A stretch of DNA of 29,754 nt from a virus, in the IMG/VR virus record IMGVR_UViG_3300017967_000133, positions 1 through 29,754 of that record, one strand, 5' to 3'. The position numbers were made by a program, and so were the translations under genes. The notes below the pieces were generated by a model, which saw nothing but the letters and a program-made list of their open reading frames with translations, made no database searches and had not been told where the DNA came from. How positions within the stretch are numbered: position 1 is the first letter of the stretch; every line of letters starts with the position of its first letter. Of the stretch, positions 1 to 29,039 are shown in pieces.

Positions 1-585
1 AACAAACCCTAAAGTAATACGAGGCTCATAGGACCCGGCACAGTGATAATAAACTTTGTCGGGTTCTCTGCCTCTGCCATAGTATCCTACTTTACAAGTC
101 CAACCGGGCTTGTCTTCCATAGTAACTATTTCTTTTGTGAGAGGATCCATGTATCTAAAGAAGCCATTGCCTGTGGGAGAATAAGACAATAGTATGTTAT
201 ATCCAGAGGCATTCCAATTATTGTGCCAACCCATGTATCCTTCTTTGGGATAAAAGACATTTACTGCTTGATTGCGAGCGCCAAGATACGCACATAGTTC
301 TTCTGCTAATTTATTTCTTTTTTCTTTGTGGTCATCGGGCGCATTTTCTGAAGTTCCTATATCAACAGACAATGTTTTTTCAGGATATCCAATATGTTTA
401 CCATCTTTTGCTACAATTTCTTTTAAGTATTCTTCACCACAGGCTTCTTCTAATGTCATGCCTTGGTGACGTTCTCTATCGTGAGCAATCTCTATTAGTT
501 TAGAGAAATCAGATTGAAAGAACCAATCACTATATTCGTTTAGTATGTCTAATACTTCTTCGTTATTAATTTCAATCCACTTCAC
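1..585 (-). CDS. 2OG-Fe(II) oxygenase-like protein, partial (C-terminus beyond the left edge)
   Basis: The frame is open from a GTG at 585-583 to the window edge, 195 codons. The GTG overlaps the TGA of the glycosyltransferase upstream (GTGA), which suggests translational coupling; no clear Shine-Dalgarno is visible. The C-terminal part looks like the double-stranded beta-helix of Fe(II)/2-oxoglutarate hydroxylases. It has G-W-H121-N-N123 followed by a beta-strand run (YNILLSYS), then 'VYYH181CA' and 'PR189ITLGF', which fit the proximal His, distal His and 2OG-binding Arg. The acidic residue of the usual H-x-D/E triad is Asn here, so catalysis is not certain. Related proteins are common in marine T4-like phages, where the substrate is mostly unknown. 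Its place after the fibre genes and a glycosyltransferase suggests modification of virion proteins or glycans, but that is inference. Confidence 0.5.
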   Translation of the reverse strand, partial: MKWIEINNEEVLDILNEYSDWFFQSDFSKLIEIAHDRERHQGMTLEEACGEEYLKEIVAKDGKHIGYPEKTLSVDIGTSENAPDDHKEKRNKLAEELCAYLGARNQAVNVFYPKEGYMGWHNNWNASGYNILLSYSPTGNGFFRYMDPLTKEIVTMEDKPGWTCKVGYYGRGREPDKVYYHCAGSYEPRITLGFV

Positions 586-1292
586 TGTAGTTGGTCCTTG
601 GGAATTGTGTGGTGATACAATACTATCTCTTCACCTTGTAGTTCTTCAAAATGATAGCCATTGACAAAGTTCCAACGAGCATCCGGTTCTTTTACATATC
701 CCCATTTAATGTTATGTCCACCATACGTAAGAAGTTTCCACATAGTAAAGGTGTCCCATCTGACAACATCTTTAGGATAATGTTGAGTATCATACCCAGG
801 TTTTCTTTGTTCTAAATACTCTGTATACCATGCACCCATAAGATCCATCATAGCAGGAGTTTTACGATAAACAAAAAATCCACAGTGACAAGTCATTTCT
901 TCCGTTGCTGATAAGTGTGTCACCTTAGAATTGTAAGGTCTGTTCTTAGTGAACACAATGTCTTTATTGCGAGGTAGAATATCAAAAACATTTTTTATAT
1001 CTTCATGTTCACACATCATATCGGCATCGAGATATGCTGTAATATCATAGGGCGTTTTATTTAGAGCCCAGAGTTTAGCACGAATATGATCGGGTATTCC
1101 TTCAGTTATCACATTGTCAAACAGTGTGTAGTCCTCAGGTTCTACCCAATGTTCATGGGTAAAGAATGTAATATTAGCTTCTGGCCAAAAATCTCGTATT
1201 GATTCTGCTAATAGTTTAGCGTGCCGATAAAATCCTTTTTGTTTTGAAGCAACAATTAAAAACCCTTTAGTTTTCTTCTTCGGCACTTTCAA
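582..1292 (-). CDS. GT-A fold glycosyltransferase-like protein (DxD motif)
   Basis: 236 residues. The N-terminus has a Rossmann-like start (GFLIVASKQKGFYRHA) with an 'ANITFFTHE' strand. 'AYLDADMM' supplies a D89-A-D91 motif, the metal and nucleotide-sugar binding DxD of GT-A glycosyltransferases (GT8-like). An invariant-looking HCGFFVY segment and a late His pair (LYHHTIP) follow. The expected role is transfer of a sugar from a nucleotide-sugar donor; the acceptor is unknown. The start used is TTG at 1292-1290, with AAGGA just upstream, inside the end of the preceding gene (26-nt overlap). The first internal ATG lies beyond the DxD region. The gene overlaps the oxygenase-like gene by 4 nt, so the two probably act together at the end of the fibre operon. 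Host glycan remodelling and virion glycosylation are equally possible. Confidence 0.65.
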   Translation of the reverse strand: MKVPKKKTKGFLIVASKQKGFYRHAKLLAESIRDFWPEANITFFTHEHWVEPEDYTLFDNVITEGIPDHIRAKLWALNKTPYDITAYLDADMMCEHEDIKNVFDILPRNKDIVFTKNRPYNSKVTHLSATEEMTCHCGFFVYRKTPAMMDLMGAWYTEYLEQRKPGYDTQHYPKDVVRWDTFTMWKLLTYGGHNIKWGYVKEPDARWNFVNGYHFEELQGEEIVLYHHTIPKDQLQ

Positions 1293-1728
1293 GATCCTTC
1301 ATCAACAAAATAGTAGCGTATGCCTGCACTTCCATAATACTTTTTGATTTACGTATTAATCTTTTGAATTGTGTATTTTTTGAATTCTTAATACTGTCAA
1401 TCTCAAACGCTTCTAATTTAGCATTGAATAGCGCTTCTTGCTTGGCTCTTGCTCTTTGAGATTCACGCCTCTCAGCACTTTTTTTAATATTTTCATTTCT
1501 TCTTTCAAGTGCTTGATTTGTGTTGTCATCTATTTGTTCTTCGGTATACTGTGTCAACACAGCTTTCATATCAGGGTTAGTGCCTTCTTTATCATGTATA
1601 GAGGCTATTTGCTCTTTACCGTTAGGCTGAACAATCGTAACAATTAGATGACGGTTTTCTCTATTAGACCAATAGGGATTTTTATATTGTTTTTTAGGTG
1701 TGTCTGCGGAAACAGATGCTTCTGCCAT
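1267..1728 (-). CDS. Conserved-type hypothetical protein with charged helical region
   Basis: 153 residues, family not recognised. Residues 15-55 look like a small beta-rich domain (NRHLIVTIVQPNGKEQIASI). Residues 60-120 are strongly charged and helical (ALERRNENIKKSAERRESQR, then ARAKQEALFNAKLEAFEI) and could form a coiled coil. The ATG at 1728 has a good ribosome site (GGAGA, about 6 nt upstream). It is the first gene after the Tyr/Gly-repeat fibre and overlaps the glycosyltransferase by 26 nt. Position suggests a fibre-associated or assembly protein, with no direct evidence of function. Confidence 0.7.
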   Translation of the reverse strand: MAEASVSADTPKKQYKNPYWSNRENRHLIVTIVQPNGKEQIASIHDKEGTNPDMKAVLTQYTEEQIDDNTNQALERRNENIKKSAERRESQRARAKQEALFNAKLEAFEIDSIKNSKNTQFKRLIRKSKSIMEVQAYATILLMKDLESAEEEN

Positions 1729-1779: not shown

Positions 1780-3033
1780 TCAAGCAGTTCTCAACCAAAG
1801 TTTGATGGTGCTCACGGTTTCAGTGCTAGCCTTAACAGTGTCGCCAGCATATGTTCCGCTAAAATCACTAGAATATGAACCACTAAAATAACCAGTGTAT
1901 GAACCGGAGTAGTTTGAAGTACCTACATAGTCACCGGAAAACGCTCGGTCATAAGCACCAGTATAATAACCAGTGTATGTTTTAGCACCAGTATAGAAAC
2001 CAGTGTAGTATCCTGTAAAGGTTCCGCCGACATAACCAGAGTAATATAAAACGTAGTCGCCTGCATAGTTACCTGAATATGCTGAAGTTCCTACGTAGTT
2101 GCCAGTGTAATCACCAGAAAATGATCCTGTATATGAACCAGTGTATGTCTTAGCACCTGTATATTCACCACTAAAAGCTTGGTTATAGGCACCGGTGAAT
2201 GTACCAGTATAAGAACCTGCATATGTAGATGAATCTACTTCTTGGCGAGTGTCAGAAAAACCACCTACGTCACCCATTTGTGTCCAAGTACCTGTTTCAG
2301 TAGGTGAAGATGATTGTACCTTGTAACAACCTACACCAGGAGTTGTGCCATAATCTTCAACGATTCTATTTCTAAAGTTAGGAACCATTTGCTCTACTTG
2401 TGCCGCTGTCATTTGCTTCATTCCGCTATCATATGTGACAGAAGAAAGGTCACTATTTGCAGAGGATGTGGGAGCAGTCTTTTGCCACAAGTAAGTAGTG
2501 TTGTTACCACTCAACACTGTATCTGTAATAGTGTAACGAGAAGTCCAAGTACCACCAGTAGGTGAAGAAGCAGCTAGATGAAATTGACCTACCGTGTAGT
2601 CTGATTCAGAAACCATATCATTAATAACTTTATCAAGTACATCAGTGTCTAGCTCAGCGTCCGTGAATTCATTGAAACCAACATCTCCGGATGTTTCCCA
2701 GCCAAGAGGACGATTAGTAATACTTTCTGAAGCTGCTGAGGTTATTTGTTTAAAGTAATAAGTAGTATCTGTTGTTGTGCCTGCTGTTGGGTGAGTACCA
2801 ATAGCATCATCTCTAGTTGTATCAGTAAAAGTGCCTATAGCAGAACCACTAAGAGCATTTGCAGTGTCCATGTTCAGGTCACCGGTAAGTGTTCCATCCC
2901 AGTCATCTGCATATTTGTTGGTAATAACATACGAGAGATACTGCTGTATCTCTGCGTCGGTCATTTCTTGGATCCCCTGAAAATTACTAGAAGTAATCGG
3001 AGTTCCAGATGCTTTAAGTCTTAGTGGGCGCAT
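1780..3033 (-). CDS. Putative tail fibre / adhesin with tandem [Y/F]-x-G repeats
   Basis: 417 residues. ATG at 3033 with AGGAAA 5 nt upstream. The N-terminal two thirds contain related modules: 'MTDAEIQQYL' near 24, 'FTDAELDTDVLDKVIND' at 123-139 and 'MTAAQVEQMVPNFRNRIVED' at 208-227. The last two are each followed by 'SSPT-(E)TGTWT' strands, at 156-164 and 242-251. Residues 271-398 are a low-complexity array with Gly about every fourth residue after an aromatic-x pair (YTG, FSG, YVG). A larger unit is repeated twice (GAKTYTG, then AFSG-[ED]Y). Such Tyr/Gly arrays occur in virion proteins of marine T4-like phages; fold and receptor are unknown. It starts 13 nt after the short fibre-like gene, so both are probably peripheral adhesive parts. 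Confidence 0.65.
   Translation of the reverse strand: MRPLRLKASGTPITSSNFQGIQEMTDAEIQQYLSYVITNKYADDWDGTLTGDLNMDTANALSGSAIGTFTDTTRDDAIGTHPTAGTTTDTTYYFKQITSAASESITNRPLGWETSGDVGFNEFTDAELDTDVLDKVINDMVSESDYTVGQFHLAASSPTGGTWTSRYTITDTVLSGNNTTYLWQKTAPTSSANSDLSSVTYDSGMKQMTAAQVEQMVPNFRNRIVEDYGTTPGVGCYKVQSSSPTETGTWTQMGDVGGFSDTRQEVDSSTYAGSYTGTFTGAYNQAFSGEYTGAKTYTGSYTGSFSGDYTGNYVGTSAYSGNYAGDYVLYYSGYVGGTFTGYYTGFYTGAKTYTGYYTGAYDRAFSGDYVGTSNYSGSYTGYFSGSYSSDFSGTYAGDTVKASTETVSTIKLWLRTA
1840..2223 (-). repeat. Coding tandem repeat: tetrapeptide-like [Y/F]-[T/S/A/V]-G-x array
   Basis: These bases encode residues 271-398 of the fibre-like protein. Aromatic-x-Gly triplets recur mostly every four residues. A longer unit starting with GAKTYTG occurs near residues 293 and 349, and AFSG[ED]Y occurs near 286 and 364. 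At DNA level the plus strand shows repeated 'accagtgta' and 'accagtata' words. Such repeats can expand or contract by recombination or slippage. Confidence 0.8.
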
Positions 3034-3046
3034 TTATGTTTCCTTA

Positions 3047-3529
3047 TTAATTCAAACGTGTACCGGAAGAATCATATATAACAGTTTCTACCATTGTATT
3101 CCAGTTTGTACTAGAGGTACCCACTAAACAAGAAGTCACTCCTGCAGGCAAATCAATTGAAGCATTTGCTGATCCTGCGTTGATAGTACCTGAAGTATTT
3201 GGATATAGTTTTACATTAACAGAAGTACCATTAGTAACAGTATATAACAAACCAGATGCTGCTGTAGGTAGCTTAACACCTTGATCTGCTGTGGCAGAAC
3301 TAACTACATTATATGTGTTGGACAATGCCGTTGCATCACCTTGAACTGTACCTGCCGCTGTAACACTAGCCGCCATTGAAGCGGTATGGTCTCCGGAAGA
3401 AGTAACATCTGCTACTGAAATGCTATCTCCGGATTGATACTTATCGCTATTTAAGTTGGTAAAGTTAGCATCAACCTCAGAATTAGTTAACGGACTACCT
3501 TTACCGGATCGTGTAGTTATTGTTGACAT
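3047..3529 (-). CDS. Short tail-fibre-like structural protein
   Basis: 160 residues. The N-terminus 'ITTRSGKGSPLTNSEVDANF' is a familiar opening of fibre and appendage proteins in marine T4-like phages; it is probably the part that attaches to the virion. The remainder is rich in Thr, Ser, Ala, Gly and Val with beta-strand patterns (GLLYTVTNGTSVNVKLYP) and no catalytic motif. ATG at 3529 with a G-rich ribosome site (GGGTAAAG). It lies between a small coiled-coil gene and the repeat fibre, each within 15 nt. A TATAAATA box 74 nt upstream, inside the previous gene, could give it separate late expression. Confidence 0.6.
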   Translation of the reverse strand: MSTITTRSGKGSPLTNSEVDANFTNLNSDKYQSGDSISVADVTSSGDHTASMAASVTAAGTVQGDATALSNTYNVVSSATADQGVKLPTAASGLLYTVTNGTSVNVKLYPNTSGTINAGSANASIDLPAGVTSCLVGTSSTNWNTMVETVIYDSSGTRLN

Positions 3530-3777: not shown

Positions 3778-6700
3778 TTATACCTGTAGAGCGTATGCTC
3801 TGAGTTTTCTTACCTTAGGTACATTAACAGTTGTGCTATTCAAAGGAACAATCTTGATGGCATAATACTTGAATCCTTGATATGTTGTGGTCTGAGTAGT
3901 AACTGTTCCTGCTGTAGCTGAGGTACCGCCGCCTCCTGAGAGTGTAACAGTAATCGTGCCACCATCATATCCCCTACCTGCATCCAGTATATTGATAGCT
4001 GTAACTGCTGATCCTGCTATTGTAGCAGTTGCTCTTGCTCCAAAACCATCACCTGAGTGTGTGATGGTTACAGTTGGTGCTGAAGTATATCCTGATCCGC
4101 CTGATGAAACTGCAATAGAAGCTATGCCTGTAACATCATATTCCAATACACCCTCAGTATTTAGACCAAAACTATTGGATCCTTTTGAGGGCAACCCGTA
4201 TCGGTATTCGCCATAGCTAGTTGTTGGAGAATCCGGTGTTAAATTTTTATCCATTTTTCTCCAAATAATATCATCACTGAATTTAGCTAAATCATCATCT
4301 ACGTTTTGTACTTTATAATAAACTTCAACATCGCCGGTAGAAGGAATATAATTATCCAAAATTACTATTAGATCTTCAGCATCCTGAGTATCTTCTAATC
4401 TTACTTTCCTAGAAATATACCTAGAGGATGCTGTGCCTCCAGTACGTACAGCTTCTCCGGAAGAATCATTGTTTATCTCGTTTTTATATGCGTTGAACAT
4501 CAAAGATTCCATATCAAGCATAGGACTTAAATGTTCATAAGGCGTCCTTAAAGTAAGTTCAAACGTAGCTGTTTTACTGCCATTATAGTTGGCCTGTTCA
4601 TTTGAATAACTGTAGATTGTTTTTTCTGTTACAAGATCGTTTAGCTCACCTATAGCCATAGGAGTCATTGTAGTATTTGCTGAAGCTGCTCCTGTATTTG
4701 TTAGAGCAAACTTAGGTGTAATTGTTCCTAGGTTACCAAAGTTATCAAAAGGACACTTAAATGCGTAAGAACTAACTACCCTATCGTAAATGTTATTTAC
4801 GTTTGCAGTCTTAGTTCCGTTACCTACTAACACAGAACGTATGGTCCTTTCTGTACCATCTACTGTATTAGAACCTGTAGAAACAAAACGTCCTTTTAAT
4901 ACAGTAATAGTAGAGGTTTCATCATACATCGCGGCATGATAAGAAACACGACCCAGGTTAAGTTCTGCCGTCACGGTAGCCGCAGAAGAAGGCGTACCAC
5001 CAGACAAGGTAACAGTTAAATTAGAGTTACCATCATATCCTGCTCCAGGATTAGTTAGAGTTATATCAGTAACAACACCTGCTGTTAATGAAGCGGTTGC
5101 TGTTGCCCCGGTTCCTCTACCTGTGCTATCAGTAATAGTAACTGTAGGAATTGATCCGTATCCGGCTCCTCCACTGTTACCCACAGTGAAAGTAAATCCG
5201 TGTACTTTATCGCCAACTGCAAACTTAGTGCTTGAATCACTAAAGCTATCGTAGTTAGTCCAGTCATGGTTTTTAGTTTTTAACTTGAGTTTAAAATTAG
5301 TATTTGTTGAGAATGTACAACGGTTAATTCTAAACATCATATCTTCTTTTTGTCTTGCTGACCAAGTTCTGTTGTTAGCAGATGTAAACAGTATTCCACT
5401 GTGTGCTTGCTTAGATATTACTGTATCTGAACCATGAATCTTTTTACCTAGTTCTGCAATCCAAACGGTATAGTTAGGATCGTCTGAGTCTGGAATAGGA
5501 ACAACACAATACTCTGTGTTGTTTTCTAAGTAAACAGGTGTTGGGAATGCAAAATGAGTACCCCTAGGAGTATATGTACCGTCTCCGTTGTCTATTGAAG
5601 CTGCACAGTCCCTTCTTTCCTTTCTAGATTTCGCTAGAACAATATCGCCCGGATAACCGTTAACCATATTTCTAAGTTCTAGTGTGATACCTTTATTATC
5701 TTCAGGTTTAGAAACAGTGTGGAAGAACAAATCTACAGAAGAAACATACATTCCATTATCGTATCCTTCAACCATAAATGATTGTGCCATTGGATCCCAA
5801 CCACCACACAACGCGCCATACATATCAAGATATGCTCTTGAACCTAGGCCTGCCATATCATATTCAAATTGAAAATTAGTTAAATCATAATCAAATTCAA
5901 CCGCACTAGCTGCAGGAGTGACAGTAGGAGTTGAAGGGACAGTAGTAGTGTAGTTATTAGATGGTGGTACCTCTACCGGAATATCATCATAGAAAGTTTC
6001 AAATGTAGCAAAACCTTCAGTGAGATCCTCTCCAAAGCCAGATCCAGTATAATGATTTACTCCATATGTGAGGAACGCATCTATAATAGAATCAACCGGA
6101 GCCGCAGAAGTAGGATCTTGAAACCCGATAAATGAATTTGCGCCACCATATTCAGTAGGTATAACAGTAACCGTAGTAGGCGGTACCGGAGTTGTCGCAG
6201 TTGTAGGAGTACTGGAAGACTCTGCCGGTCTATCCTGAGGATCATATGATATATCAGAAGTCCTTGTAAACACCGTACCTTCTACTATTTTAGGATCTAA
6301 AGGTGTTGACACCGCTTGTGCGGGCTCTGAGCCTGTTCTTGTTCTTGGTTGAGGAGGATTGATAACAGTATAGTGTTTGGCATTAGTAATAATAGTGCCG
6401 TCACCGCCTGTAAAAGTATTTGTAGCTCTAGATACAGTGTTTACTACACCACCTGATCGGCGGCCGCCGATAAGGCCTTTAGAAGCTACTATTACATCAT
6501 GTTTACCAGGAGGAAGTTCTTTATCTCCAATAGTAAATGTACCAGAAGCTCTACCATTTGCATTTGAAGTAAATGTACCTTTGCTAATACCTCCAATATA
6601 AATTGTATGTTCTAAATTAGAGCATAGTCCGCCAGCAGACCACTGTATTTCTTGTGATCTAATATATCCGTAATTTTTTCTACTTACCTCTTTTTCACCA

Positions 6701-9700
6701 TCATAAACACGATTTGCATTAGGTAAAGAACCAATATATGAGTATTGTGTTTCACGCCTCTTAGGTTGTATTTCATTTCTAGCATATTCAGTATAAGGTT
6801 GTACTTCAGTCTCATACCAGGTACCTATAGTCAGTAGATAAGGATCTTGATAAGACCATCTGTCTGCTCTGTGAAATGATAATTCGCCTTCATTCCATAT
6901 CTCTTCGGTATATTCTTTCCTGCCGAGTATATTTTCTCCGGGTGTACCTGTGTCGGCGGTTTGAATATAGGACAATCCATCATCTACTATTCTGTCATAA
7001 TCAAGGTGCCACGCATCATCACTGTATTCAAAGTTAGCTTCTACACCTGTTATGACATTTTCAACGTCATCAGTTGATAGCCTTGTGTCTGTCCATGCAG
7101 GATCTTTCTTTGGTCTGATTTGTAGGTCTCCATATACAGGCTGACCAACACCACAAACTGGAGGAGGAGTATCTTTTACACAGGCTTGTGTTATAGGATC
7201 CCATGTATAACCTGTGTTACACGCTATAGGAACACAGGCATTACCGGCTGCATTTAAAGTATAACCTGAAGCACATACAAGTCCAACATTAGTATTGTTT
7301 AGTGTAAATGTTGAGCTTGCTGAACCAGTAGCATTTCCATCACTATCAGTAGCATCAAGTGTGAGTTTTAAAGTTTCATTTTCAGTAATGCCTGTTTCAG
7401 TAGCAAATGTAAATGAAACGACTGCTTGAGAACCGCTGTCTATTGTAGCAGTTCCTGTTAGTGAACCAGAAGCTAAGTCTCCAGATAGAAGTGTATAACC
7501 TGTTGTACAAGAAAGAGTCCAGCCAACTGTCACACCTGAACCTACAGCACTGCCCTGTATAGTAAGTGATATAGATTCGCCTTCATCTACTGCACCTTTA
7601 TTTGTAATAGAATATTCAACTACACGTTCTGCTCCATTATCAGGATTAACTGGTTCAGGAATAACCGGTCGAAGAACACAAGCGTTAGCTACAGGGTCCC
7701 AAATATAACCAGATTGACAAGTAGGTTGAACAACAACTTCCTCATCATATAGAAGTTCCGTTACAATAGCTTCCCATTTACTAGCTTTTAAATTTTCCGC
7801 ATACATAATTTCTGCGTAAGGAACGTGTGCTATAGCTCCAGTCTGACCACACTCGTCAGATGCTCCCGAAAAATTCGGCAAAAGTGAAATAAATTCGTCA
7901 GAGAAATAAGGACGCATAACACCAATAGATTTATGTAAAGAACATTTGTAATCAGGATCATTTACTGCTGCTGTAGTAAATCCATTAAATGCGTCTACTA
8001 ACAATCCGTTTTTAAATCTATCTACACCTGATTCATCTAAGAATTTCTCATCTTTAGATGCTTGTTCTAATATAGACAGAGAAGTGTAATACTCAAGATT
8101 TTCAATTCTTTTTTCTAGGCCACCAATTTGTGACATAGTATACTTGGGATTATTTACCTTTCTAACTTTATTAGCCAAATCTAATCTTGAATAGTATTTA
8201 CCCGATGCCGCACTCAAAGAAGGATATGGTTTAGCCACAAGTGTAGCCAATGTCATATCTTTACTAGTTTTAGGCATAGGAATGCTTGGCTTTGTAGAAG
8301 CAGGATTAGATACAAGCTCAATAGAACCTGTAGGAGTGACTATAATTCTATGCCCCTGACCCAAATAGTATTCAAGATCTGTTGTAAATTCTTGTACAGG
8401 GACAGGCATAGTTAGACCATTAGAAGGTCTTGTGATAGTTATTGCACTGCTAGGATTCTGAGTTGCAGAACCTAATGTAGCCGTAGGAGTTGCTGTATTA
8501 GTTGCATAAGGTCTAAAATCTAATTCATCTCTAAGGTCTACTGTTCTGCCTTTGCTATTAACATATAAAGGCACCTCTTGTAGTTTCATTGTGTTTGCTG
8601 ATATTGCGGCTGCATATGAATCTATACAAGAAAAAGTAGGACCAGTAACAGTTCTACTAAAATAGTCAAACTTAACAAGTAAGTAAGGTCTGGCAGTAAA
8701 GTCTACAGTGGCCGAAGGTTTCTTAAATATCTTAGCGAGTCCATAGTAGTTATCTCGCTGACCGTTATCGAATCTAAACTGACTCGTTACGTCTATTCCA
8801 TCGGAAGCTGCTGAAAATGCTGAAGAATGAGCCCTGATTGATGTTATTCTAAGTACATCAGCTACACCTAAATTAAATTCTATTTCGGAAGTAGAATAAG
8901 TATCAGTACCGTCAGCAAGAAGTGTCACATATTGATCTGTATTCAGAGTTTTTGAAATTGGCGTAGTATCTGCTACTTGAACATTGGCATAAATTTTAAC
9001 ATCTAGGCCAGAAGATGCAACAGCTGTTGCTCCTAGGTCTATAGTAATTTCTGTATCACTAACTACGGTTACACTTCTGCCTGTAGCAGTGAGATCTAAC
9101 ATTTCTCCCAATGAAAGTGTGTCAGTAGGAGTAGTTGTTGTAAAAGTATCTTCAGCTACTACCTGAATATTAGCAAGAGCTGTAGTATCGCTCAATACAC
9201 CGGTCGAGTATGGGAAAGTTTCATTACCGCTTACGGTTATGGATACTTCACCATTAGCTGCTACTGTAGCACTAAATTCTTTTGTATACTGAAAATCGTA
9301 GTCGTATGTTCCGCCAGGTGCAATAGTCTTTGTATTTCTAGCCGGTAGTGGGAAAAATACTGAATTGAATGCCTTTTCTTTCAACACTGCACCGTAGTTT
9401 GCGGTACCTGCGTACTGCCAAGTGATACCACCATCTGTTGCAGTACCAGAAGTATGTGTAGGTCCTGAACCACTTGAAGCAGAAGTACCTGCTACTGTCG
9501 CAGTATATAGATAATCACCATTGTATGCAATTTGATTTGGTGCAAAGTATGTACTAGTTGCCCATGCTTTAGCATTAGCATCAATATTATTTAATACAAC
9601 GTCTGCAAAACCATCAGCATTTGTATCATTATAATACAAACTTTTTACATTTTCAAAGTTATCAGAGGTCATTTTAACATCATACAAATAAAGTCTGTAC

Positions 9701-11088
9701 TGAGCAGATGCTGAACCTACTGTCCCTGATTCGCGTACAAAGTGACGAATCTTAGCTGTACCTATAGCATTACCTGATGCTGAAGTTCCTGAAAAAGTTG
9801 CAGAAGTTACTGCTGTCTGTGCAGTATCATAAAGGGTAACTTCAGCGCTTCCGTCTACATCCCATGAACCACAAGTTTCATCTACAAGAATGTAGTTACC
9901 ATAGTTTGTAGTTATTGTAGAATCTTCTTTTGTTTCCGTATCAGTAGGTTTGTCTATTATCAATAATTTACGATTAGTCAGTCGTAAAGGATGTCCGCCT
10001 ACTTCACAATAACCGGGAGAAATTTCTGCTACTAATTTTGTAGCATCGCCACCATTAGCAGAAGTAAACACACCACCATTAACACCGTCGTTAAGGTGTT
10101 CTTTTAACTGAACAGTCAGACCATGATCTACAAAGTTACCGTATGTTTCATAGGCCCTTTCATTCATTATATCGCCTAGACGATTTAGTCCGCTGGTCCT
10201 AATATCATTTCTGACTAATCTACCATACTCCCACTGTCCGTATTCAAAAAATAGTTCGGGCAAAGTAACGCCGGTAACTGCATATGATTTTAGTTGTGCA
10301 GAAATATTATATCGGTCTGCGCCGGGTGCATTGAAGTTATAAGAGCCTGATGCTGGATCTAAAAGTGTCTCATCATCAGTGTATTCTTTTACTGCCTCTG
10401 TTAGTTCAAAACCTATTTTACGAACAACAGAGTTGCTAAAAGGATGTACGTAAGTAGACAATGTATCCGTAAGAATAAATTGTTCTTTTGCATATATTAC
10501 ACCGGGAGATAATTGTATTTTGGTTGTAGTACCATAATAGTTATCTGCATGAGTTACAGGGCTTGCAGCCAAATTACTAGTAACAAACTCGGTATTTAAG
10601 TGAGAGCCCCCTGAGATTACTTTTAATCTTTCAGCTCCAGAGAAATGTTCGTTACCTTCGCCACGGCCGTTAAAATCTAAATATGCAAGATAAAAGGCCT
10701 TTAGTGCCGGCCTTCCTGATACAGATCCTTGTACAGTGCCTATGATTTTAGCTTTGATTCCTGTAGTTTGACCTTCAACTATAGCACCTCTAAACTTCTC
10801 CATTTGTGCATTGGTCAATGCTGTTGTTGTAGTAACACCGTTAGGATAATACTCATCATTAATTTTAATATAAGGAACTGCAATAATAGATTCTTCACAT
10901 CCACTAATCACTGCGCCTTCTTTGAGTGTAAAACTTCCAAGATTAGAAATTTGATTTTGAAGAACTGTTTGTAGCTGGGTCAGTTCTCTTGCTTGTACAG
11001 CAACACCAGGTTTAAATAAAATCCTGTTATAATTTTTTGTTGCATCAAAGTCGTCAAAATACGGAGAAGTATTTAAATTGAGTGCCAT
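3778..11088 (-). CDS. Giant virion structural protein, DUF4815-type N-terminus
   Basis: 2436 residues. The N-terminus (NTSPYFDDFDATKNYNRILF, then KPGVAVQARELTQLQTVLQ) matches the DUF4815 opening of large virion proteins in marine T4-like phages; these sit in the baseplate region, probably as a wedge-peripheral or fibre component. Residues about 1-1100 hold the DUF4815-like region. At about 1121-1138 there is a CxSGYxWDPxxxACV motif, then a Calx-beta/Ig-like stretch (ITENETLKLTLDATDSDG), then two more Cys motifs at about 1271-1313. Near residue 1770 'GGWDPMAQSFMV' begins another conserved beta-rich block. Two Gly-rich GSGY modules lie near 1960-2045 and 2320-2400. No T4 gp9, gp10 or gp11 homologue is seen here, so this protein may replace them (inference). 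ATG 11088 has AGGA-TTAGGAA upstream; it starts 9 nt after gp8 ends. Confidence 0.8.
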   Translation of the reverse strand: MALNLNTSPYFDDFDATKNYNRILFKPGVAVQARELTQLQTVLQNQISNLGSFTLKEGAVISGCEESIIAVPYIKINDEYYPNGVTTTTALTNAQMEKFRGAIVEGQTTGIKAKIIGTVQGSVSGRPALKAFYLAYLDFNGRGEGNEHFSGAERLKVISGGSHLNTEFVTSNLAASPVTHADNYYGTTTKIQLSPGVIYAKEQFILTDTLSTYVHPFSNSVVRKIGFELTEAVKEYTDDETLLDPASGSYNFNAPGADRYNISAQLKSYAVTGVTLPELFFEYGQWEYGRLVRNDIRTSGLNRLGDIMNERAYETYGNFVDHGLTVQLKEHLNDGVNGGVFTSANGGDATKLVAEISPGYCEVGGHPLRLTNRKLLIIDKPTDTETKEDSTITTNYGNYILVDETCGSWDVDGSAEVTLYDTAQTAVTSATFSGTSASGNAIGTAKIRHFVRESGTVGSASAQYRLYLYDVKMTSDNFENVKSLYYNDTNADGFADVVLNNIDANAKAWATSTYFAPNQIAYNGDYLYTATVAGTSASSGSGPTHTSGTATDGGITWQYAGTANYGAVLKEKAFNSVFFPLPARNTKTIAPGGTYDYDFQYTKEFSATVAANGEVSITVSGNETFPYSTGVLSDTTALANIQVVAEDTFTTTTPTDTLSLGEMLDLTATGRSVTVVSDTEITIDLGATAVASSGLDVKIYANVQVADTTPISKTLNTDQYVTLLADGTDTYSTSEIEFNLGVADVLRITSIRAHSSAFSAASDGIDVTSQFRFDNGQRDNYYGLAKIFKKPSATVDFTARPYLLVKFDYFSRTVTGPTFSCIDSYAAAISANTMKLQEVPLYVNSKGRTVDLRDELDFRPYATNTATPTATLGSATQNPSSAITITRPSNGLTMPVPVQEFTTDLEYYLGQGHRIIVTPTGSIELVSNPASTKPSIPMPKTSKDMTLATLVAKPYPSLSAASGKYYSRLDLANKVRKVNNPKYTMSQIGGLEKRIENLEYYTSLSILEQASKDEKFLDESGVDRFKNGLLVDAFNGFTTAAVNDPDYKCSLHKSIGVMRPYFSDEFISLLPNFSGASDECGQTGAIAHVPYAEIMYAENLKASKWEAIVTELLYDEEVVVQPTCQSGYIWDPVANACVLRPVIPEPVNPDNGAERVVEYSITNKGAVDEGESISLTIQGSAVGSGVTVGWTLSCTTGYTLLSGDLASGSLTGTATIDSGSQAVVSFTFATETGITENETLKLTLDATDSDGNATGSASSTFTLNNTNVGLVCASGYTLNAAGNACVPIACNTGYTWDPITQACVKDTPPPVCGVGQPVYGDLQIRPKKDPAWTDTRLSTDDVENVITGVEANFEYSDDAWHLDYDRIVDDGLSYIQTADTGTPGENILGRKEYTEEIWNEGELSFHRADRWSYQDPYLLTIGTWYETEVQPYTEYARNEIQPKRRETQYSYIGSLPNANRVYDGEKEVSRKNYGYIRSQEIQWSAGGLCSNLEHTIYIGGISKGTFTSNANGRASGTFTIGDKELPPGKHDVIVASKGLIGGRRSGGVVNTVSRATNTFTGGDGTIITNAKHYTVINPPQPRTRTGSEPAQAVSTPLDPKIVEGTVFTRTSDISYDPQDRPAESSSTPTTATTPVPPTTVTVIPTEYGGANSFIGFQDPTSAAPVDSIIDAFLTYGVNHYTGSGFGEDLTEGFATFETFYDDIPVEVPPSNNYTTTVPSTPTVTPAASAVEFDYDLTNFQFEYDMAGLGSRAYLDMYGALCGGWDPMAQSFMVEGYDNGMYVSSVDLFFHTVSKPEDNKGITLELRNMVNGYPGDIVLAKSRKERRDCAASIDNGDGTYTPRGTHFAFPTPVYLENNTEYCVVPIPDSDDPNYTVWIAELGKKIHGSDTVISKQAHSGILFTSANNRTWSARQKEDMMFRINRCTFSTNTNFKLKLKTKNHDWTNYDSFSDSSTKFAVGDKVHGFTFTVGNSGGAGYGSIPTVTITDSTGRGTGATATASLTAGVVTDITLTNPGAGYDGNSNLTVTLSGGTPSSAATVTAELNLGRVSYHAAMYDETSTITVLKGRFVSTGSNTVDGTERTIRSVLVGNGTKTANVNNIYDRVVSSYAFKCPFDNFGNLGTITPKFALTNTGAASANTTMTPMAIGELNDLVTEKTIYSYSNEQANYNGSKTATFELTLRTPYEHLSPMLDMESLMFNAYKNEINNDSSGEAVRTGGTASSRYISRKVRLEDTQDAEDLIVILDNYIPSTGDVEVYYKVQNVDDDLAKFSDDIIWRKMDKNLTPDSPTTSYGEYRYGLPSKGSNSFGLNTEGVLEYDVTGIASIAVSSGGSGYTSAPTVTITHSGDGFGARATATIAGSAVTAINILDAGRGYDGGTITVTLSGGGGTSATAGTVTTQTTTYQGFKYYAIKIVPLNSTTVNVPKVRKLRAYALQV
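3895..4131 (-). repeat. Gly-rich GSGYTS module (C-terminus of the giant protein)
   Basis: Encodes a two-step repeat: 'IAVSSGGSGYTSAPTVTI', a Gly/Ala linker with 'ARATATIAG', then 'INILDAGRGYDGGTITVTLS' and GGGG. The same pattern recurs in gp8 and the gp7-like protein. Confidence 0.75.
4960..5205 (-). repeat. Gly-rich GSGYTS module (internal, giant protein)
   Basis: Encodes 'TVGNSGGAGYGSIPTVTI', 'GATATASLTAG' and 'ITLTNPGAGYDGNSNLTVTL'. It has the same alternation of G-x-GY, PTVTI strand and ATATA linker as the C-terminal module. Confidence 0.75.
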
Positions 11089-26896: not shown

Positions 26897-27072
26897 CTCT
26901 TTCTCAAGATTCGTTGGAGAATTATTATAAAACGAATTTTCTATTGATGCAGGAACACCATTGGAGTTTAACAGAATTAGAAAATATGGTGCCTTGGGAA
27001 AGAGAAGTTTATGTTAGTATGCTCATGTCACATTTAAAGAAAAAGGCTGAAAAGAAAAAGAGTAACCAATAA
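26884..27072 (+). CDS. 51: gp51-like frame, probably expressed as a -1 frameshift fusion with gp26
   Basis: Open in the -1 frame relative to gp26. From the slip site it encodes 'FFRLTLSQDSLENYYKTNFL', 'LMQEHHWSLTELENMVPWER' and 'EVYVSMLMSHLKKKAEKKK', ending SNQ. The 'W-LTELENM-PWERE-Y' core is typical of the small gp51 proteins (hub assembly catalyst) of marine T4-like phages, and of second-frame tail chaperones generally. The first in-frame ATG (26947) would remove the conserved-looking 'LTLSQDSLENYYKTNFLL' part. A TTG at 26914 is the only earlier alternative, and neither has a Shine-Dalgarno. A 288-residue gp26-gp51 fusion is therefore the simplest reading; separate initiation at TTG or ATG is the alternative. 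Its stop overlaps the next ATG (TAATG). Confidence 0.65.
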   Translation, partial: FFRLTLSQDSLENYYKTNFLLMQEHHWSLTELENMVPWEREVYVSMLMSHLKKKAEKKKSNQ

Positions 27073-29039
27073 TGGATAACATTTTAGATTTAAGTAGCTC
27101 AATACGTTCTACTTTTGCCGGTAAACAAACAGCAAGCAGAGGCAGGGTACCTAGTCTCGCTAGTGATCTTGCAAGTTCTATATCTGAAAATACTGAAGCG
27201 TTAAAAGAATTATTAGCTAACAATTCTGAGGCTAGAAAAGAGTTATCTAATTTGGTTGATATGATACAAGAAAGCCAAGCACTAACAGGCTCTGCTTTAA
27301 AAGAAGCATTAGCAGGCATTGAAGAACAAATGGAAGTTTTAAGAAAAGCAGCAGGTAAAGATGGTAAAAAAATAGATCGTCTGTTAGGATTAAGTAAAGG
27401 CATTGCCAAAGCGACAGGTGTTAGGCAAGCTACCGCTGTTCCTGTTGCTGATTCAACTTCATCTGCTGTAGCAGATGCTACATATACAACAGGTCAAGAC
27501 ACAGACGGTAAAGGTAAAGATTCTAAAACACTAGAAGAAATTTTAAACACCTTAAAAGGAACCGGCGGTGCAGGTGGTGGGACCGGATTGATTGGCACCA
27601 TAATTGGCGGACTTGCAATGGCAATGGCAGGCGGACTTACAATATCAAAAATACTAGAAGAATTAGGATTTACAAAAGAAAGTTTTTACAACGACATTAA
27701 AAATATGCTTGGCATAGGCACTGATCCTAATGGCAATACAAGCTTAATCGGACAACCAGGATTTACATACAATCAAAACAATGGTCTAGGTCCGACTACA
27801 GTAACAAGACCTAATGGTTCACAAGTGGATCTAGAAGAAAATATTTTAGACAACACACGAGCTGATGAAATATTAGTTGCACAGGCACTAGATGGTACTC
27901 GCTCTAGACAAGTAGGAAGAGGAGTTTTAGCGACGGCAAATACAGCAGGAAGGGTAATAACCCCTGCTGTGGATGCCGCCGGAAGAATGATGAATAACGT
28001 GACAACAAATTCAAGAGGTCAGCAGATTTATAGAACAAGCCGCCCTGGCCAGGTCGCGGGCCGATATGCTTCTAGGGAAGCGAGAGAAGCACTATCTGAA
28101 AAGATCGGAAGAACCGTTGTTGCAAAAGCAGCCAGAATGGCACCAAAAGTTATTGCTAAATCTCTTCCTTTTGCAGGAGCAATCATTGGTTTGGGTGAAG
28201 GAGCCTGGCGAATGATAAACGGAGATGCTGTTGGAGCTGCTATGTCAGCTGCAAGTGGCGCTTTAGGTCCTATTACTGCAATAACAGTAGGAGCTGCTGA
28301 TATTGCAAGAGAAGTTTACAAAGAAGTGTATAGGGATCCGGAAACCGGTGAAGAGATACGACCAGAAAATGATCCATTGGTCAGGGAGCGATTGCCTGCT
28401 ATTGTTCAATTGGCAACAGCTGAATTAAAAAAACTAGTAATGGGTGAGCTTGAGTTACATAATGCAAAATCTAGTGGTTTATATGACAAAGATATTATTG
28501 GTGATTCGGAAATAGATTATGAAAAATTAGCACAAACTAATAATGCTGACCAATTGAAAGCTATTATCAATGATGATGATTTATCCGGTGAAGATATGGC
28601 AGCAGTAAGAGCAAGGTTAGCTGAAATAGAGAATATGGTACCTGAACCTGCAGCAATCAATGAAAATTCAGCTGCACTGTTAGATCCTTCACTAAGTGAA
28701 CCTTTAATGCAAGCAGCCGAAACAATGACTCCTGAAGCAAGAATGGAACTTGCCAGAGTAAATCCGGAATTGAGACCTATGATGGAAGAAAGGGGTCTCA
28801 TAGAACCTGCTACTTCGACATACGGAATGACAGGTGATGCTATTTATGCTATGACTCCGGGAAATATGAACGGAGGAACACTCGTTCAAAACATAGATCA
28901 AAGCACTAATACTACTGTTAACGGCGGCAATCAGGGCGGCACAGGTATTATTCCTTTAAGAAGCAGGCCTGAGAATAATGTATTTGAAATGTATCAATTA
29001 GGCAGAATTGCTCCTGCACTTGGGAGTGGCGCTAAATAA
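27072..29039 (+). CDS. Probable tape measure protein (gp29-like)
   Basis: 655 residues; T4 gp29 is 590. The N-terminal 110 residues are helical and coiled-coil-like (ALKELLANNSEARKELSNLV and so on). A Gly/Ala hydrophobic segment follows at about 170-192 (GLIGTIIGGLAMAMAGG), and a second one at about 365-420 (SLPFAGAIIGLGEG; ALGPITAITVGAA). The C-terminus is Asn/Gly-rich (NIDQSTNTTVNGGNQ) and ends in a conserved-looking 'LGRIAPALGSGAK'. Ejected tape measures carry such transmembrane-like segments. At 0.15 nm per residue the length would specify a tail of about 98 nm, plausible for a T4-like phage. It directly follows the gp26-gp51 pair with TAATG overlap, the position of a tape measure after G/GT. 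Sequence similarity to T4 gp29 was not recognisable by eye. Confidence 0.6.
   Translation: MDNILDLSSSIRSTFAGKQTASRGRVPSLASDLASSISENTEALKELLANNSEARKELSNLVDMIQESQALTGSALKEALAGIEEQMEVLRKAAGKDGKKIDRLLGLSKGIAKATGVRQATAVPVADSTSSAVADATYTTGQDTDGKGKDSKTLEEILNTLKGTGGAGGGTGLIGTIIGGLAMAMAGGLTISKILEELGFTKESFYNDIKNMLGIGTDPNGNTSLIGQPGFTYNQNNGLGPTTVTRPNGSQVDLEENILDNTRADEILVAQALDGTRSRQVGRGVLATANTAGRVITPAVDAAGRMMNNVTTNSRGQQIYRTSRPGQVAGRYASREAREALSEKIGRTVVAKAARMAPKVIAKSLPFAGAIIGLGEGAWRMINGDAVGAAMSAASGALGPITAITVGAADIAREVYKEVYRDPETGEEIRPENDPLVRERLPAIVQLATAELKKLVMGELELHNAKSSGLYDKDIIGDSEIDYEKLAQTNNADQLKAIINDDDLSGEDMAAVRARLAEIENMVPEPAAINENSAALLDPSLSEPLMQAAETMTPEARMELARVNPELRPMMEERGLIEPATSTYGMTGDAIYAMTPGNMNGGTLVQNIDQSTNTTVNGGNQGGTGIIPLRSRPENNVFEMYQLGRIAPALGSGAK

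Follow-up and report, generated by a model that had tools for sequence, protein, structure and literature searches.

Mirror-related Tyr-Gly arms in a phage fibre-like protein point to an out-and-back beta needle

Results

A Tyr-Gly array at the end of a baseplate operon

We analyzed a 29,754-base virus record, referred to throughout as the window, whose minus strand carries a T4-like baseplate operon encoding the tail tube cap, wedge and hub proteins, gp8 and then a 2436-aa DUF4815 protein. This last protein (DUF4815/phrog_358; 3778-11088, minus strand) adjoins gp8 and contains stretches that match baseplate, connector and head families; elsewhere in the window, a 655-aa ORF on the plus strand (27072-29039) matched no PHROG family at E ≤ 0.001. 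At the downstream end of the operon lies a 417-aa ORF that carries a dense array of Tyr-Gly repeats. The features of this locus, in the direction of reading, are:

3047..3529, minus strand: 160-aa protein directly upstream of the fibre gene, found in 55 of the 66 loci with at least 2.5 kb of upstream sequence
1780..3033, minus strand: fibre-like protein with the array, whole ORF, 417 aa, delimited by the ORF and its orthologues
2254..3033, minus strand: conserved N-terminal region without a known family, residues 1-260, AlphaFold pLDDT mostly >90
2056..2223, minus strand: N-arm, residues 271-326, Tyr/Phe-x-Gly-x tetrads, proposed from sequence symmetry
2146..2157, minus strand: hexad break GAKT (Lys295) of the N-arm, predicted to pair with GTSN at Ser373 (295 + 373 = 668)
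2080..2091, minus strand: hexad break GTSA (Ser317) of the N-arm, predicted to pair with GAKT at Lys351 (317 + 351 = 668)
2011..2055, minus strand: proposed tip, residues 327-341 (YVLYYSGYVGGTFTG), mirror axis at Tyr334 (i + j = 668), from sequence symmetry
1978..1989, minus strand: hexad break GAKT (Lys351) of the C-arm, predicted partner of Ser317
1912..1923, minus strand: hexad break GTSN (Ser373) of the C-arm, predicted partner of Lys295
1843..2010, minus strand: C-arm, residues 342-397, proposed from sequence symmetry
1783..1842, minus strand: conserved C-terminal return strand, residues 398-417 (..STETVSTIKLWLRTA), pLDDT 94-95 from residue 401
1267..1728, minus strand: 153-aa charged protein, helical by eye, directly downstream of the fibre gene; candidate fibre chaperone by position
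582..1292, minus strand: 236-aa GT-A-like putative glycosyltransferase with a YLDADM motif and a sub-threshold match to Pfam Glycos_transf_2
1..585, minus strand: 195-aa 2OG-Fe(II)-oxygenase-like protein, labelled by motif (conserved His121, His181 and Arg189), running off the window

An initial sequence-only reading had described an aromatic-x-Gly array in a fibre protein at this position, and both parts of that description held. Residues 271-398 (1840-2223 in minus-strand translation) contain 26 [YFW]-x-G steps, compared with a mean of 7.0 (s.d. 2.0, maximum 16) in 10,000 shuffles of the 135-residue array (residues 266-400), and the position of the gene supports a fibre-like protein of the baseplate operon. 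Steps are mostly spaced by 4, with some 6s and 8s; a single 3 and a single 5 occur close to the centre, and alternate positions hold small residues (Thr, Ser or Ala). A collagen-like fibre was rejected for lack of Gly at every third residue: among the 27 Gly, 17 Gly-Gly pairs fall at lag 4 and 1 at lag 3, in agreement with the earlier remark that the period differs from that of collagen. The aromatic-x-Gly array in the 417-aa protein is real, and it is not a plain array. The repeat DNA of the window is degenerate, as Tandem Repeats Finder (TRF) reported 2.6 copies of 24 bp with 76% matches; in the relative L019, two neighbouring units are 96% identical in DNA.

Relatives share a repeat grammar and differ widely in length

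Two scans of viral contigs returned relatives from at least 79 loci (one scan took 80 of 107 relatives), numbered here with the prefix L. Excluding the incomplete rows L063 and L066-L069, the first set comprised 75 complete sequences, the window included, which reduced to 57 distinct proteins; the 9 that do not end in LW were handled separately, leaving 48 LW-ending proteins for analysis. The proteins of L001 and L002 are identical to that of the window. Close complete relatives share the conserved N-terminal region and the C-terminal peptide (..ETVSTIKLWLRTA and similar), and distant relatives end in ..ETYTLYVRTA. The N-terminal region (residues 1-260) appears by eye to hold three similar helix-plus-strand modules, and its sole PHROG match was a helicase at E=0.29, which we took as chance.

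The array unit consists of tetrads, [YF]-[TSAV]-G-x, with each tetrad run closed by a hexad that has Lys (GAKT, GDKT, GPKN) or Ser (GTSA, GTSN) in fifth position. The larger duplicated units noted from the sequence alone correspond to these hexad-closed runs; they are often 22 residues long, and their length is not constant, with runs of 10, 18, 26, 30 and 34 residues also present. Across the 48 distinct proteins, 1260 of 1333 steps are even and 73 are odd, which therefore points to beta-strand alternation with Tyr/Phe and Gly on one face; the other face is mostly Thr, Ser, Ala and Asn. Total length runs from 317 to 641 aa, and the number of YxG steps after residue 225 ranges from 6 to 81. The suggestion that repeat number can vary is thus supported, and the array is not constant in length, a property that had been named as grounds against it.

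When 50,697 phage records were searched, the fibre protein matched only one, Phage C48C1, annotated as Kyanoviridae, and the 153-aa, glycosyltransferase-like and oxygenase-like proteins each likewise matched only this phage. A collection of bacterial and archaeal genomes yielded no relative of the fibre; 17 stretches there fitted the pattern and none was confirmed. From the T4-like, cyanophage-type neighbours and the C48C1 relative, we infer a marine phage origin. No title concerning such an array appeared among the literature matches listed (for example, the best 15 of 777).

Two arms of matched length flank a shared axis

Splitting each array at a central motif, [YFDSH][YF][SAG]G[YFVR], with the tip placed by hand in L053, L056 and L057, revealed two arms whose lengths are tightly coupled. 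The C-arm exceeds the N-arm by 21 residues in 37 of the 48 proteins, by 20 or 22 in another 10, and by 15 in L065, while the N-arm itself spans 15 to 178 residues (r=0.9994 between arms); examples of N- and C-arm lengths are 66/87 in L012 (418 aa), 88/109 in L017 (462 aa) and 110/131 in L019 (506 aa). The first automatic choice of tip placed 44 of 48 proteins within 20-22, missing L007-L009, where a second motif was picked, and L065; a stricter tip motif raised the arm-equality count to 47/48. A tree of the N-terminal region requires at least 24 length changes in the N-arm and 25 in the C-arm, compared with 6 in the difference between them. All of these symmetry counts, and those that follow, come from related sequences, so that nominal p-values overstate independence.

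An axis search that used no motif and simply maximized aromatic-Gly pairs arrived, in 47 of 48 proteins, at one common offset from the array ends (-15); L070 tied with a second axis, and L065 gave a tied value of -13. Of 201 hexads, 200 lie opposite a hexad when the axis is set at -15. Other offsets from -24 to +24 brought at most 20 hexads into register, except ±22 (96-98), which is the unit length. The hexads that face each other are also of opposite type: 96 of 100 pairs set Lys against non-Lys (93 Ser, 3 Asp), compared with a mean of 51.5 and a maximum of 74 such pairs when hexad types were shuffled within proteins (2000 shuffles). The clearest case is L029, with seven hexad pairs, all complementary. 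Gly lies opposite Tyr at 1157 of 1354 positions and opposite Phe at 121 of 236 (odds ratio 5.6; 47 proteins, L065 omitted, pairs counted from both sides), and Phe is commoner where the opposite residue is larger. Axis shifts of 4 and 8 gave Tyr/Phe-Gly odds ratios of 0.62 to 1.53. By its sequence symmetry, the array of the window protein is therefore read as two mirror-related arms about residue 334.

Swapping arms between proteins provided a control. Hexad register was 0.99 within proteins (L065 omitted) and fell to 0.44 when arms were exchanged between proteins of equal arm length (112 pairs, with partners' N-terminal regions <80% identical) and to 0.11 between proteins of unequal arm length (1894 pairs; 0.27 for the 86 pairs differing by 22). 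The aromatic-Gly share was 0.83 within proteins, 0.79 for equal-length swaps and 0.68 for unequal ones, and complementarity is complete among those hexads that still face one another after equal-length swaps. Because swaps largely retain both, aromatic-Gly share and hexad complementarity discriminate less than register.

Equal arms extend further across the family than the residue code

Four further scans supplied 45 distinct proteins outside the first set, of which 43 were analyzed for the axis. Setting aside, from 43 names, two without an LW end, one incomplete protein, four without a recognisable tip and L147, which has two tips, the arm difference was 18-23 in 35 of 35 proteins with one tip (21 in 20 of them; N-arms 28-121, r=0.9992). 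The residue-level axis was kept in 20 of the 43 fresh LW-ending proteins, with 82 of 322 hexads in register and 34 of 41 pairs setting Lys against non-Lys. Since arms are equal in 35/35 proteins and the axis is kept in 20/43, arm equality holds generally across this sample, and the Tyr-Gly/Lys-Ser code is, as judged from these sequences, confined to one large part of the family.

The residue-level axis is lost in clades with Arg hexads (SRT, SRN), comprising L107/L108, at -19, and L117-L142, as well as in L147, L223 and L224; in L090 and L093 the axis is kept and hexad register is absent. In the Arg-hexad clades the midway position of the tip motif is retained, but neither Tyr-Gly pairs nor hexads align at the fixed axis, and L107 and L108 partly align four residues off it. 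The 663-aa ORFs of L107 and L108, outside the 43, gave axes of -33 and -11 and count as misses. Distant relatives ending in ..LYVRTA yielded no unique axis in this search (7 of the 9 non-LW proteins were run again).

Several of these loci have distinctive architectures. L117, L119, L125, L142 and relatives have G-S/T-R-T hexads and odd-length spacers, with equal arms and a lost Tyr-Gly register. L147 (2501-3745) contains two tip motifs, YQRFFAGFSG, with arms of 44/118 and 96/66, and fits no single hairpin. L107 and L108 each carry two distinct LW-ending YxG fibre ORFs (663 aa plus 527 or 510 aa). In the distant relatives L076 (3819-5489) and L078 (4989-7508), the array is interrupted near its middle by a segment of roughly 100 residues or more that looks globular and might be a receptor-binding tip domain borne by two arms.

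Predicted structure and alternative folds

AlphaFold modelling of the window protein as a single chain with a 45-row alignment gave a mean pLDDT of 78.6, with values of about 90 or higher through most of residues 1-265. Strands were predicted at 259-301, 309-325, 339-355 and 365-415, on both sides of the axis, and pLDDT was <50 in most of 288-386. The model of the short-armed L053 protein (mean pLDDT 87.9) placed strands at 249-274 and 295-329 around the predicted axis at 285.5, with residues 272-297 at pLDDT <50. Foldseek searches with both models gave no credible match (best E 0.18 and 0.68 in PDB, 0.013 in viral structures), nor did a VIA-align fold search (best Z 4.8); the second-ranked BFVD hit was a fragment of T4 gp37, weak at E=0.054 and prob 0.05. 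With pLDDT <50 over most of both arms in both models, the arm pairing is well supported by the sequence rather than by structure.

Low model confidence is also what a disordered, low-complexity Gly/Tyr/Ser/Thr linker with regularity of mutational origin would produce, and AlphaFold gives strands here yet pLDDT <50 over most of the arms. We regard such a linker as very unlikely, as arms that stay matched through at least 24 length changes, together with matched breaks and Lys/Ser complementarity, are signs of selection acting on a structure. A membrane glycine zipper, suggested by Gly at each fourth residue, can for practical purposes be set aside. In a Pfam scan of relatives, covering L029, L022 and L075 only, Gly-zipper_YMGG matched L029 at 70.1 bits against a cut-off of 28.9, and Gly-zipper_Omp matched too; however, Thr, Ser and Tyr abound in the arms, where aliphatics are scarce (ILVM 19/369 in L029), strands and no helices are predicted there, the hexads preserve beta parity, and Pfam matches nothing in the window protein at E ≤ 1.

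The other candidates are beta structures. The even-period alternation and the many 22-residue units would both suit a one-way beta-solenoid or amyloid-like stack with 22-residue rungs and Tyr and Gly ladders, possibly with exposed, glycan-binding Tyr, along the lines of the Gly/Tyr solenoid first proposed from the sequence. Unit length nevertheless varies from 10 to 34 residues, and a one-way stack needs no equal arms, mirror-register breaks or Lys-Ser opposition, which makes this fold improbable; the variable units and the mirror-symmetric array fit an antiparallel out-and-back hairpin. The dense exposed Tyr of that proposal is less likely as well, since the Tyr/Gly face looks packed, with Tyr mostly opposite Gly, and stacking of Tyr on glycans becomes a less likely putative function of the fibre. 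The arms could still pair if each chain formed its own two-stranded ribbon or paired with one other chain, and here the symmetry data, which bear on arm-arm pairing alone, are silent on chain number. A single ribbon with 60-180-residue arms would be expected to leave the Tyr face open, and the T4 gp37 needle is a trimer (PMC6957217); we consider these chain arrangements rather unlikely.

Likenesses to T4 gp37 and other phage fibres

The nearest parallel to a paired-arm hairpin is the receptor-binding tip of the T4 long tail fibre, gp37 domains D10-D11. There, a D11 needle (residues 882-1009) is inserted in a collar domain (811-881 plus 1010-1026), two 50-residue arms (882-931 and 960-1009) on either side of the tip (932-959) form its stem, and G921 of one subunit packs against F970 of another (PMC6957217); a second source describes the needle as six-stranded and antiparallel (PMC9659904). 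The G921/F970 contact is mirror-related about the T4 tip, because 921 + 970 = 1891 = 882 + 1009. Our axis search applied to the T4 needle placed 1891 level with 1910 and 1889, at 5 pairs each, and so serves as a weak positive control. As in D10-D11 of gp37, the window protein appears to have equal arms around a tip and a C-terminus that returns to the base, here by sequence symmetry, and an aromatic residue of one arm opposite a Gly of the other, here proposed at most layers.

The two proteins nonetheless differ in much. Compared with gp37, the YxG fibre has Tyr-Gly repeats, arms of 15 to 178 residues, a Lys/Ser break code, a short conserved turn rather than a larger receptor-binding tip, and an N-terminal region without a known fold. 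Profile comparison by hhalign against gp37 found no similarity (Prob 0.14, E 0.4 over 11 columns), the window protein matched no Pfam family at E ≤ 1, the collar domain included, and the arms of L001 (the window protein), L012, L019, L029 and L043 contain 0 His, so that HxH iron sites are absent there; the C-terminal peptides of the YxG fibre and gp37 are alike by eye only. Because sequence similarity, a Pfam collar and arm His are all lacking, we do not file the YxG fibre in the gp37 family. Host-range variants of T4 with duplications of a small adhesin domain were reportedly described by Tetart et al. in 1996; both there and here a fibre tip is altered by segment duplication, whereas here units appear to be gained or lost in both arms together.

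Other fibres share single aspects of this design. The short repeat of the T4 gp5 spike has a VxG consensus. In gp5, a triple beta-helix is built from octapeptide units, which likewise makes a beta fibre with a short repeat (PMC3004832); there it is a one-way intertwined helix, unlike the mirror-paired arms proposed here. The tail fibre of Alteromonas phage R22Y has six HxH motifs, and its authors compare it with the gp37 tip (PMC11705849). Both would be marine phage fibres with a periodic motif, with histidine-iron motifs in six places in R22Y and Tyr-Gly at most layers here. The single relative among the phage records, WJE88074 of Phage C48C1 (3348 aa, hypothetical), has a related N-terminus (30% over residues 2-324), YxG and YxR arrays, an ..ETYTLYVRVA end and the same downstream genes; it differs in being about eight times longer, with several inserted globular stretches by eye. 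This 3348-aa protein, encoded at L022 (12013-22056), also contains a repeated stretch whose copies start near residues 2008 and 2083. Neither C48C1 nor the other giant arrays show a simple mirror by eye.

A conserved set of genes follows the fibre

The genes downstream of the fibre keep a constant order. All 62 loci with at least 3.2 kb of downstream sequence encode a relative of the 153-aa protein there, not always adjacent to the fibre (L015, L016, L076, L078), and the order fibre, 153-aa, glycosyltransferase-like, oxygenase-like, all on the same strand, holds in 61 of these 62, sometimes with other genes intervening; the sole exception, L078, ends inside the second downstream gene, and the 62 loci include near-identical contigs. 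Phage C48C1 shares this order, and all three downstream proteins were present at nine Arg-type loci that we inspected. Five distant loci (L223-L227, flanks ≤2.5 kb) gave no match to the cassette proteins. The conserved order suggests a cassette for fibre modification or assembly.

As with T4 gene 38, which follows gene 37, the gene after the fibre is a candidate chaperone by position; searches with the 153-aa protein found no similarity to gp38 and only weak PHROG matches. We take YLDADM of the 236-aa protein to be a DxD-type motif, hence its glycosyltransferase label, and 6 of 15 members of its family have sub-threshold Pfam matches. The oxygenase-like label is given by motif, from the conserved His121, His181 and Arg189, and database searches give it no support. 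The G-x-K breaks might suggest that the two enzymes act on Lys only; the nine Arg-type loci retain the same enzymes, which counts against this. An enzyme pair beside a repetitive fibre recalls, by analogy, the collagen-modifying enzymes of mimivirus.

Discussion

We consider it probable that this tail-fibre subunit is an out-and-back beta-hairpin needle resembling the T4 gp37 tip, with a Tyr-Gly interior in place of His-iron. The baseplate-associated subunit would be anchored by its conserved N-terminal part, from which the chain would run outward as one beta arm to a short turn at the tip (residues 327-341) and back as a second arm of equal length, with the conserved C-terminal strand rejoining the base. 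The arms would pair as antiparallel strands, and three chains would form a needle of six strands, like that of the T4 gp37 tip. The Tyr/Gly face would point inward and the Thr/Ser/Asn face outward, each Tyr of one arm filling the gap left by a Gly on the other, and the Lys/Ser hexads would set the register of the arms. If each residue spans 3.3 Å, the needle would be about 20 nm long here. It would expose its tip to the host surface and change in length as units are added to each of the two arms. The 153-aa neighbour is possibly a chaperone for folding; the glycosyltransferase-like and oxygenase-like neighbours may be enzymes that modify either the fibre itself or the surface that it contacts. 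Among these elements, we infer the trimeric needle, the interior position of Tyr and the functions of the neighbours.

A broader version, which we offer tentatively and with some doubt, is that the arms recognise each other by a residue code, with Tyr/Phe against Gly at each layer and Lys-type against Ser-type hexads at the breaks, which would fix their register in a manner comparable to base pairing; needle length would then evolve in matched, quantised steps of both arms, and the neighbouring enzymes would decorate the finished needle.

Such a fibre would represent a design whose length can be adjusted over roughly an order of magnitude while its fold is kept by a pairing rule that is readable in the sequence and that predicts neighbouring residues one by one. 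Its natural length variants would be useful for asking how fibre reach affects host contact, and designed beta needles could use the array as a modular scaffold. Whether phage fibres undergo modification after synthesis is a question prompted by the conserved enzyme pair, and the fibre itself may mark a group of phages that is almost missing from the phage records searched.
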